Positions 4,986-62,351 of a stretch of 64,000 nt of DNA are shown one piece after another. Below the pieces are notes generated by a model. The model was given only the letters and a program-made list of their open reading frames with translations. It was not told where the DNA came from and searched no databases. Source of the stretch: Bacillus multifaciens (GTDB taxonomy: Bacteria; Bacillota; Bacilli; Bacillales; Bacillaceae_G); the NCBI RefSeq assembly GCF_030756675.1, contig NZ_JAVBXD010000014.1:1-64000 (forward strand), read 5' to 3'. How positions within the stretch are numbered: the first letter of the stretch is position 1; the number at the start of each line of letters is the position of its first letter. The position numbers and the translations under genes are program-made.

Positions 4986-5255
4986 TTAACATAACAAGTT
5001 TTTTATCGAGAACAAATTGAATAATCCTTATTTATCTTTTTTACAACATTGATATAAAATTTTTCTGTTAAATGCGTAAGAAAGGCAGTAGAAGTGTAGA
5101 TTTCGGCTTTTTGTATGTTTTTTCGACAAATTTTAGTTGAGTTTCTTGCTCATAAGCATTATCCTAGGGTGTGGGACATTTTTTCAGTTATGACGGATAG
5201 AATGAGTATTGCTGTAAAACCTATTCGTAGGAACATTAGAGAAAGGGGAGATTTC

Positions 5256-5492
5256 ATGTCTCTGCTCCAAGGAATTTTAACTCGTCTTGTTAGTCTAAAA
5301 GAACAAGCTGAAAGCGGCGAAGTAGCACAACGCTATTTTGAAGTGAACGGTGAACGCAAATGTAGCGTAAAATATTTTGATAAAAGCGATATGTACGAGC
5401 TAGAAGTGTATCAACAAGGAGAAAAACCACAAGTATATCAATTCGATAATATTGATATGGTTGCAATCGAAATTTACGATATTCTTTCTTGA
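5256..5492 (+). CDS. ykuJ: YkuJ family protein, unknown function
   Basis: A 78-residue acidic protein that matches the YkuJ family in length and in its position before ykuK and abbA. The start ATG at 5256 has AAAGGGGAG eight bases upstream; the frame is open further upstream, but that part has no ribosome site and reads as non-coding. Tyr- and Glu-rich beta-type segments (YDIL-type C-terminus) and no Cys or membrane segment suggest a soluble cytosolic protein. Its function is not established. Confidence 0.8.
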   Translation: MSLLQGILTRLVSLKEQAESGEVAQRYFEVNGERKCSVKYFDKSDMYELEVYQQGEKPQVYQFDNIDMVAIEIYDILS

Positions 5493-5497
5493 TACAT

Positions 5498-5538
5498 AAA
5501 AAGAAGGTGCCTCAAAAAATGAAGGCACCTTCTTTTTT
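5498..5538 (+). terminator. Terminator after ykuJ
   Basis: A 14-15 base-pair stem (AAAGAAGGTGCCT and its complement) with an A-rich loop and a run of T. Confidence 0.85.
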
Positions 5539-5679
5539 TATGATGAATAAGATTCTCTCTCTGACCCTAAACTGATAACGCATTCTATAAAGTGAAGTTT
5601 TCATCAATCGTGCTCTTACGGATAGGTAGCTTTAAGATAGAGGCCTGATTATAAGCGGCGATATAAAGAGGTGAGAAAA

Positions 5680-59844: not shown

Positions 59845-61086
59845 CTATAAAAATATATGTTGGATTTCATTAAATCGAACAGGATGCTGCGTTATATCTC
59901 GCTTTATCATTTCACTGCAAAGAGATCCCTGTAAAATAGAGCAATAAGCAGCGCTTGCTTTTCGGTCTATATCTAGAAGAGGATGTTGGAACGTTTTTGC
60001 ATGAGAAAGCAATGGAAGTGTTATTTGCTTTTTTATTGCTGATATATATGCTTGTCCTTTTTGAGACATGCCGAGTAAACGAATATATTGTGCGTGTTGT
60101 TCAACATGCGCTTTGTACATTTCTTCTTTTGTAGTGTTCGTTAAAATGTGTGTGCAAATGCGCTGTAGTCGTGTCCACGTGTAACGTTTTGTTTTTAATA
60201 CTTCCATAAATTTTGTGAATGAAGTTGCTTCTTGGATAGAAGATAAAATTCGATGTTCCAACCCTTCTTCCACTTCATATATATTTTGTAATTGCGATGG
60301 TGACATTGTTAGGAGTTTATATTTTAGAAAGTGAAAATAATGCTCCCAATTATGTAATAGGTGATAGGAATGTTTATATTGCTCTAAAAATAGTTTTGTA
60401 ATTTTTGGAACAAAAGGAATAATTGTTGAAAAATTTTCCTGATTATTAAATAATTGTTTGCGAATGCTCGTTGCACTGGCAATTCGTTCATCTTGAAATG
60501 TTTCGTCATGATAGTGCGAAGCGAAACGCGTAATTGTACTTGCTTTCATTAAACTTTTTTGTTTGATAATTGCCTCTATGTAATGCATTCCTAAAATATT
60601 ATTAGGCTCTGAAATGTCGATAGTAGTTATGTTTTTTTGTAAGGATGAAAACGCTTCAGAAGTTGCTTTCGCATAACTCATTCCTGTTTTTGAGTATTGT
60701 TGTATGAGGGAATGGAATGTGTTTTGCTCAGTTTGACGCAAAGTAACTGTATTGTAGAAGTGCTCGATATTACCACTTTCACTCCCAAAGCAAACCTCAG
60801 AGACACGAAGAGCATCTAATATTGAAATAGCACCGTTTGCAAAAGTTTCGGCTTTTTGTGTCGCGAAAGCATATGGCAGTTCGACGACAATGTCCACGCC
60901 ATTTGCTAATGCCATTTGAGTTCGCGCCCATTTTGAAACGAGAGCCGGTTCCCCTCGTTGTAAAAAGGGTCCGCTCATAACAGCAATGATGATATCCGCA
61001 TTTGTTAACTTTTTCGTTTGTTGCATATGATAAGCATGACCATTGTGAAATGGATTATATTCAACAACAATTCCGCTAGCCTTTAT
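59845..61086 (-). CDS. tmcAL: tRNA(Met) cytidine acetate ligase with a non-AUG start
   Basis: A nucleotidyltransferase-family enzyme (YlbM/TmcAL) that uses acetate and ATP to make N4-acetylcytidine in elongator tRNA(Met). The first ATG (61026) gives 393 residues starting MQQTKKL, which lacks the N-terminal strand and HxGH-type motif. The frame stays open upstream and encodes [11 protein letters not shown], the family's active-site motif, at residues 8-17 of the longer form. It is preceded by AAAGGGGAG with ATT ATT ATA just after. Aligning with the B. subtilis N-terminus (MKA) puts the start at the ATA codon 61084-61086, six bases from the ribosome site, and gives 413 residues; an ATT at 61089 is the alternative. 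No ATG, GTG or TTG is available. [16 protein letters not shown] and SATSIRKQL blocks follow. Confidence 0.85.
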
Positions 61087-61161
61087 AATAATCTCCCCTT
61101 TCAGTGTAGCATCTTTTTCTAAAACATGATAATCTATATATTATTTCCTATAATGACTTCA

Positions 61162-61192
61162 TTATAGTGTAAAGAAAAAACTTACACTATAA
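61162..61192. other. Inverted repeat at the element boundary
   Basis: TTATAGTGTAA with its perfect complement across a nine-base A-rich loop, between tmcAL and the integrase. It may be the integrase terminator or part of an attachment region, since the att site of such elements lies beside int. The second attachment copy is outside the window. Confidence 0.45.
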
Positions 61193-61220
61193 ATGCATTA
61201 TATCATTTGTACCACGGGAT

Positions 61221-62351
61221 TTAATCCTCTTGATTTTCATCAACGACCACTTTTTGACCACTTCGACCACTTTTTAGTACATTTCCGAGCTTTTCAGTAG
61301 CTTCAATTTGACGTTCCTCATACGTATCAGTATAAATATTTAAGGTTGTGGAAACATTTGTATGACCAAGTAATTTTGCGACAACCTTTGCATTTGCGCC
61401 AGAATCGATTAAAATAGTTGTAAACGTTCTTCGGATATCGTGGAATCTAATATACGGTACGTCTATTGCTTCGCACAAAGCTTTCATTTGATAACGTATT
61501 GTATATGGATGCACGATTTTTTTATTTCTTGTGCAAATTAATAAATCAAAAGAATTCTCTTTTTTATGTTTTTGATATTCCAGCAATTCTTCCATTAATT
61601 CTTCCGTCATTGGGATCACACGATTAGATGCTTCTGTTTTCGTCTCACCTAATTCATATTTACCATCCACGAGCGTTAATGTCCTTTGTACATGAATAGC
61701 TTTATTTTCAAAATTAATATCATTCCACTGTAGAGCCAATACTTCACCAATACGCATGCCTGTATGCAGTGCTAAAATAAATGCAATATAGTAGCTGCCT
61801 TTCATTTTGGCGTACTCCATAAACTTCATTGCTTGTTCAATTGTCCAACTAGCTTGCGCTTTCTTTTTCACTTTTGGCCGCTTTGCTTTCTTAGCAGGAT
61901 TAGAGCTAATCATTTCTAACTCTACGCCTTTATCAAGGATTTGCTTTAACATAACATCGACTGATGAAATGTATTTTGTAGTCAGACCCTCTTTAAGTAG
62001 CTTCTGATGAAAATTATGCACGGTCAGAGGTTTTATATCTGATAACCTCTTATCGGCAAATTCAGGCATAACACGTGAGCGTAGAATGCGTTTGTATTGA
62101 TACAATGTTGATGGCCTACATGATGATTCTTTCTCTTGCATCCAGATTTCTACGAGTTGAGAAAAGCGAATATCACTATTCTCATAATCCCCACTTGCTA
62201 AATTATTCGTTATTTTAGCTACTTCTTCCTGGGCAGCTTTCTTTGTTTTAAAACCGCCTTTAGTGATTTGTTTCCGTTTACCTGTGAGTGGGTCTTTGCC
62301 AACATCCATAGTGAAGGACCACTTCTCACCACGTTTACGAAAGTATGCCAT
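61221..62351 (-). CDS. int: Phage-type tyrosine integrase
   Basis: A 376-residue tyrosine recombinase with an N-terminal arm-binding AP2-like domain (about 1-45), a SAM-like core-binding domain (about 58-150) and a catalytic domain. Catalytic residues: R200 (TGMRIGE), K238 (GETKTEAS), H304 and R307 (HDIRRTF), H330 (LLGHTNV) and Y340 (NIYTDTY). ATG 62351 follows GAGGTG; the frame upstream to 62387 lacks a site. It is inserted where ylbN-rpmF is expected after ylbM, marking an integrated element. The C-terminal tail is polar. Confidence 0.92.
   Translation of the reverse strand: MAYFRKRGEKWSFTMDVGKDPLTGKRKQITKGGFKTKKAAQEEVAKITNNLASGDYENSDIRFSQLVEIWMQEKESSCRPSTLYQYKRILRSRVMPEFADKRLSDIKPLTVHNFHQKLLKEGLTTKYISSVDVMLKQILDKGVELEMISSNPAKKAKRPKVKKKAQASWTIEQAMKFMEYAKMKGSYYIAFILALHTGMRIGEVLALQWNDINFENKAIHVQRTLTLVDGKYELGETKTEASNRVIPMTEELMEELLEYQKHKKENSFDLLICTRNKKIVHPYTIRYQMKALCEAIDVPYIRFHDIRRTFTTILIDSGANAKVVAKLLGHTNVSTTLNIYTDTYEERQIEATEKLGNVLKSGRSGQKVVVDENQED

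Follow-up and report, generated by a model that had tools for sequence, protein, structure and literature searches.

At which codon does translation of tmcAL (ylbM), the gene for tRNA(Met) cytidine acetate ligase, begin in Bacillus multifaciens? The gene is located on the minus strand of the window, by which we mean the whole stretch of 64,000 nucleotides analysed, and its first in-frame ATG (61024..61026) opens an ORF of 393 codons (59845-61026). The frame is open upstream of this ATG up to an in-frame TAA stop codon (61141..61143, minus strand). This open part contains, in that order, the Shine-Dalgarno (SD) sequence AAAGGGGAG, two consecutive ATT codons (61092-61090 and 61089-61087), an ATA codon (61084..61086), AAG GCT AGC GGA and then an 11-residue nucleotidyltransferase motif (61036..61068), which is outside the ORF opened by the first ATG. 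Re-reading of the sequence confirmed the positions given in the initial annotation, which had also claimed that no ATG, GTG or TTG is present between the ribosome-binding site and the motif. A scan of the frame in the window bears this out, with no in-frame codon of these three kinds from the upstream stop (61143-61141) to the motif.

Read from the ATA, tmcAL comprises 413 codons and a stop codon (59845..61086, minus strand). Its product harbours a motif of the NPFHNGH type, absent from the 393-codon ORF, which we take to be part of the active site in the nucleotidyltransferase superfamily to which TmcAL belongs. The PF05636 profile, matched from its position 2, yields 466.7 bits for the ATA form and 414.2 bits for the ATG form (cut-off 27), and NF010191 yields 498 and 446.6 bits, respectively (curated cut-off 360); the 413-residue protein is a near full-length family match above the curated cut-off. 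Solved TmcAL chains are matched as well. The alignments with 5y0n-5y0q, presumably TmcAL of B. subtilis, begin at residue 2 of the query, and that with 5y0r begins at residue 2 of both proteins. The profile matches and the frame support the earlier proposal that tmcAL starts upstream of its first ATG and that the motif is lost in an ATG-based gene call. The start is very probably a codon other than ATG, GTG or TTG.

AUA and AUU had both been put forward as this codon. The two ATT codons are in frame and near-cognate, and initiation at either would add one or two residues to the protein. The computed pairing of the SD site (61093..61101, minus strand) is GAAAGGGG (61102-61095), and from the last paired base the spacing is 8 nt to the ATA as against 5 and 2 nt to the two ATTs. 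Furthermore, the start codons of the relatives align with the ATA position, and in the key relative described below (locus L061) the ATT adjacent to the ATA is replaced by ACC. The first ATT is retained in that relative, and infC, the classic rare-start gene, has ATT at its presumed start in all 19 related genomes analysed, both of which speak for an ATT start. We nevertheless consider such a start quite improbable: the start codon is very probably the ATA at 61086-61084, and only the AUA half of the earlier proposal is retained.

The SD duplex at the ATA has an energy of -11.8 kcal/mol in the window and -12.9 kcal/mol in L061, and that at the downstream codon has an energy of -2.7 kcal/mol in the window (ATG 61026, which has no clear SD site) and -2.9 kcal/mol in L061 (GTG), all computed against an assumed anti-SD sequence. 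The tmcAL ATA is therefore a near-cognate codon with a strong SD site (-11.8 kcal/mol) at a suitable distance (8 nt). Folding of the 116-nt leader gave no indication of an RNA structure hiding the start, as it folds no better than shuffled sequences (z 0.77). A CTG located six codons upstream in the window was discarded as a start candidate, being TCG in L061 and having weak SD pairing (-2.4 kcal/mol). A short upstream ORF, ATG CTA CAC TGA (61112-61101), is out of frame and 5' of the SD site. The equivalent ATG opens nine codons in L061, with a stop codon overlapping the ATA, is in frame with tmcAL in L071, and was not seen in L051, L053, L054 or L058; we treat this short ORF as a chance occurrence.

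L061 is an IMG/VR contig in which tmcAL is adjoined by an integrase gene whose product is 93% identical to that of the window. Its TmcAL shares 281 of 413 residues (68%) with that of the window, and its start region reads GAAAGGAGAG ATT ACC ATA AAA GCC AGT. The ATA and the first ATT are thus kept, ACC precedes the ATA, and GTG stands in place of the ATG at 61026. From the ATA to position 61026, 8 of the 20 codons differ between the two loci, all by synonymous changes in third positions and with no non-synonymous change; the 18 codons upstream of the ATA, by comparison, show 2 synonymous and 5 non-synonymous changes. This difference argues that coding constraint begins at or near the ATA, and by this comparison the 20 codons from the ATA to 61026 are under purifying selection and evolve as coding sequence.

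Such constraint upstream of ATG 61026 is difficult to reconcile with a start at this codon, by which the lineage would make a shortened TmcAL devoid of the catalytic motif, and so are the weak SD pairing there and the loss of a motif that is part of the active site in this nucleotidyltransferase superfamily. ATG 61026 is the first canonical in-frame start, L061 has a GTG at this position that would also be usable, and the cereus-group database entries, of the 393-residue form according to the initial annotation, would count on the same side. We regard this start as very improbable, and the ATG as probably an internal Met codon.

We then consider the start codon across relatives, in a partial sample. 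In the main draw 286 of 398 genomes have a match, of which the best 111 were attempted (30 loci, 80 regions, and G001 through its own locus); 20 of 80 genomes, those above a strict cut-off, were read from a second draw, and 7 of 397, above a stricter cut-off, from a third. Of a first set of loci (L001-L062), 60 have the motif and the other two, L059 and L060, are without tmcAL. Removal of two duplicates, L061 and L062 being one and the same contig, leaves 58 loci, with ATG in 39, TTG in 14, GTG in 4 and ATA in 1. Fourteen additional loci from the family of genome G803 have CTG (7), ATG (3), TTG (2), GTG (1) and ATA (1), and 80 further short regions, taken by descending score, have ATG (54), TTG (22) and GTG (3), with one (L156) lacking the motif. 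Altogether, 142 of 152 distinct loci, the window included, start with ATG, TTG or GTG and 10 are non-canonical, and a recount with a single script agrees with the separate counts. Outside the family that comprises G803, L061 and the window, every one of the 131 Bacilli loci read has a canonical codon at the homologous position (92 ATG, 33 TTG and 6 GTG; L156 left out).

An unambiguous ATA at the start position was found in two loci, the window and L061, which represent sister lineages and both have a prophage beside the gene. Searches for closer relatives of the window's TmcAL returned proteins of at most 61% identity among those compared in the whole-genome draws, a single relative (Virgibacillus) in genome contigs, and 15 plasmid records, none at 60% identity or more. 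Viral contigs gave no match with TmcAL as the query, and queries with the integrase or with DNA patterns identified one contig that also carries tmcAL, namely L061. The peptide deformylase encoded with the window's tmcAL shares 154 of 184 residues with PDB 2okl, presumably a B. cereus protein; a comparison of CoaD with PDB chains added nothing. A literature search, in the portions of the articles available to it, did not turn up any description of tmcAL/ylbM beginning at AUA.

Across 19 genomes of the G803 family, the codon at the tmcAL start is CTG in 7, TTG in 5, ATG in 4, GTG in 2 and ATA in 1. A weak start is therefore not a fixed property of tmcAL, given the ATG, TTG or GTG of 11 of these 19 genomes. 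The CTG loci (L074, L076, L078, L079, L082, L083 and L084) have GGAGGTG ahead of the CTG. Five of them have no in-frame canonical codon anywhere between the upstream stop and the interior of the motif, and the other two have a GTG five codons on (L079) or a TTG twelve codons on (L076). The ATA of L071 is ambiguous, with in-frame ATGs 9 and 14 codons upstream. Strong SD sites precede both near-cognate and canonical tmcAL starts in the family, so that a strong SD site is not by itself a sign of compensation.

Other genes of the same genomes were used for comparison. The neighbouring gene ylbN, taken as a control, was found in 67 of 70 loci and starts there with ATG (38), TTG (28) or GTG (1), never with a near-cognate codon; the loci in which it was missed (L074, L079 and L082) are all CTG-tmcAL genomes. 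For tilS, an ATG or a TTG is available at a plausible place in 19 of 19 genomes as judged by eye, with no sign of a weak start. Because an in-frame ATG lies four codons downstream of the infC ATT codons mentioned above, we assign those as starts by their position and by what is known of infC in Bacillus. In a tree of 28 TmcAL proteins, built with residue 1 left out, L061 is the sister of the window (100/99), L071 groups with two genomes that have TTG (99/96), and a third clade contains the CTG genomes; 14 of the 25 inner branches are open, including those among the CTG genomes. With L071 counted, the tree needs five changes between near-cognate and canonical codons, and we read the near-cognate tmcAL start as having arisen at least twice separately.

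The presence of a prophage next to both ATA genes raises the possibility that insertion of the prophage introduced the ATA at the attachment site and displaced a canonical start. The tyrosine integrase gene of the window (61221..62351, minus strand; PF00589, PF14659 and PF14657) is directly upstream of tmcAL and in the same direction, and in L061 an integrase gene is likewise directly upstream; relatives of the protein at 92, 93 and 95% identity are found in three IMG/VR contigs. The putative attachment site (61162..61192, minus strand) consists of an inverted repeat, TTATAGTGTAAG / CTTTACACTATAA, around TTTTTT. To the left of GTTTTTTCTTTACACTATAAT, the window and L061 both depart from the relatives, and the sequence there ends in TATAGTGTAAG, which is an inverted copy of CTTTACACTATA. 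Relatives served to delineate the putative site; the prophage's other end is outside the window. The native promoter appears to be TTGTCA-N17-TATAAT, as present in L051, L054 and L058, with its putative -10 box TATAAT (61161..61166, minus strand) kept in the window and in L061. This would place the attachment site within the promoter spacer, and the prophage would therefore retain the -10 box and replace the -35 region (TTGTCA in the relatives) with the left half of the repeat.

The position of the attachment site, approximately 76-106 bp upstream of the ATA and in the promoter, argues against a prophage origin of the codon, and so does the DNA from that site to the ATA, which is alignable, with gaps, to that of relatives that have ylbN upstream. 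The ATA is in host DNA, some 76 bp downstream of the attachment site, and we consider its introduction by the prophage hardly likely. A consensus promoter scan of positions 60950-61400 gave four sites, close to the 2.2 that chance would produce; all are on the plus strand, and none belongs to tmcAL. It reveals no minus-strand promoter, and the match of the tmcAL leader to those of the relatives is comparative only. Transcription from the integrase gene, which reads towards tmcAL, could supply tmcAL transcription. As for the other genes carried next to the integrase, a HipA_2-like kinase gene (PF20613; 62685-63494, plus strand) is found beside it in the window and is presumably prophage cargo. 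In L061, a gene that by inspection looks like an HNH-type endonuclease gene (5129-5641), absent from the window, lies between the integrase gene and the attachment site.

In light of these data, we propose, with a probability of roughly 90%, that translation of tmcAL in this Bacillus begins at the AUA at 61086-61084. The codon itself, its homology to the start codons of relatives, the onset of coding constraint and the SD site with its spacing are read directly, and from them we infer initiation at the AUA in the cell. The extended SD GAAAGGGG would hold the 30S subunit at the AUA, the initiator fMet-tRNA (anticodon CAU) would be set on this codon with one mismatch, and the resulting protein would be complete TmcAL, NPFHNGH active site included.

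AUA, AUU and CUG belong to the class of codons selected against by IF3. The AUA start is likely to lower TmcAL output, to between about 10% and one third of that from AUG by analogy with AUA sites measured in Staphylococcus aureus, and to make it IF3-sensitive. The simplest reason would be that the cell has little need of TmcAL and that a throttled start is either tolerated or favoured in the lineage, which fits with the CTG found at the same place in related genomes. In addition, much as the initial annotation supposed, the weak start might serve regulation by coupling TmcAL to IF3 or to general initiation stringency, in parallel to infC. Near-cognate codons recur at the tmcAL start, with ATA in the clade of the window, CTG in another clade and perhaps ATA again elsewhere; they are accompanied by strong SD sites, and infC has its own ATT throughout the 19 genomes. 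The ccpN AUA site of S. aureus also responds to the growth medium (PMC13009471). However, low expression alone would give the same pattern, the strong SD sites are shared with canonical starts, and most of the G803-family genomes have canonical codons. The prevalence of ATG, TTG and GTG over the whole set of loci would similarly argue against a dedicated regulatory role, and we therefore hold such coupling to be rather unlikely. More speculative still is the idea that selection places tmcAL, like infC, under near-cognate starts, so that AUA fidelity in elongation and start-codon stringency would be tuned jointly through IF3 and TmcAL would be made in proportion to the looseness of start-codon choice.

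A more direct loop of self-control, suggested by the AUA at the head of the gene and running through acetylation of the initiator tRNA by TmcAL, appears unlikely. In two related genomes (L220 and L221), the loop that we take to be that of the initiator is CTCATAA, identical to that of tRNA-Ile2, and that of the elongator tRNA-Met is TTCATAC; the assignment of the three CAT tRNAs as initiator, Ile2 and elongator is our own, based on sequence features. The initiator loop agrees with tRNA-Ile2 at positions 32 and 38 and differs there from the elongator. Because of this match to tRNA-Ile2, the initiator is not expected to be a TmcAL substrate. The ac4C34 modification is put on elongator tRNA-Met by TmcAL and blocks the reading of AUA (PMC12514573), and it was mapped on tRNA-Met in B. 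subtilis (PMC7408541).

If our proposal is correct, an annotation that begins at the first ATG deprives the TmcAL of this lineage of its active site, and the same fault could affect the CTG genomes of the G803 family. The short list of bacterial genes that start with AUA or CUG would also gain a tRNA-modification gene. Moreover, TmcAL would keep the elongator tRNA-Met off AUA, yet its own synthesis would need an initiator tRNA that accepts AUA.

Like 5y0p, over 411 residues aligned from residue 2 of the query, the window's TmcAL keeps the motif EYNPFHNGH, and it belongs to the same protein family as the solved TmcAL of Thermotoga maritima (5y0r-5y0t). It differs in its ATA initiator from B. 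subtilis ylbM, which we assume to start with ATG. Among near-cognate starts, peptides and GFP fusions led to the proposal of a CTG start for a B. anthracis gene of the GntR family, whose authors leave the function of this CTG open (PMC4589699). That start was deduced from the lack of ATG, GTG or TTG between the peptide found and the upstream stop, much as the tmcAL start is here; the gene and the codon are different, and there is peptide evidence for the GntR gene. In S. aureus, ribosome profiling revealed AUA or AUU starts with strong extended SD sites for infC, whose start is AUA, and for ccpN, cvfC1 and citZ, with reporters for three of them. Their output is approximately 10% of that from AUG in poor medium, with ccpN reaching as much as 30% in rich medium (PMC13009471). 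Relative to these sites as reported, tmcAL similarly combines a near-cognate codon with a strong extended SD site and an expected lower, possibly tuned output. Unlike them, it codes for a tRNA-modifying enzyme, its start codon varies among relatives, and its AUA start is proposed from sequence comparison.
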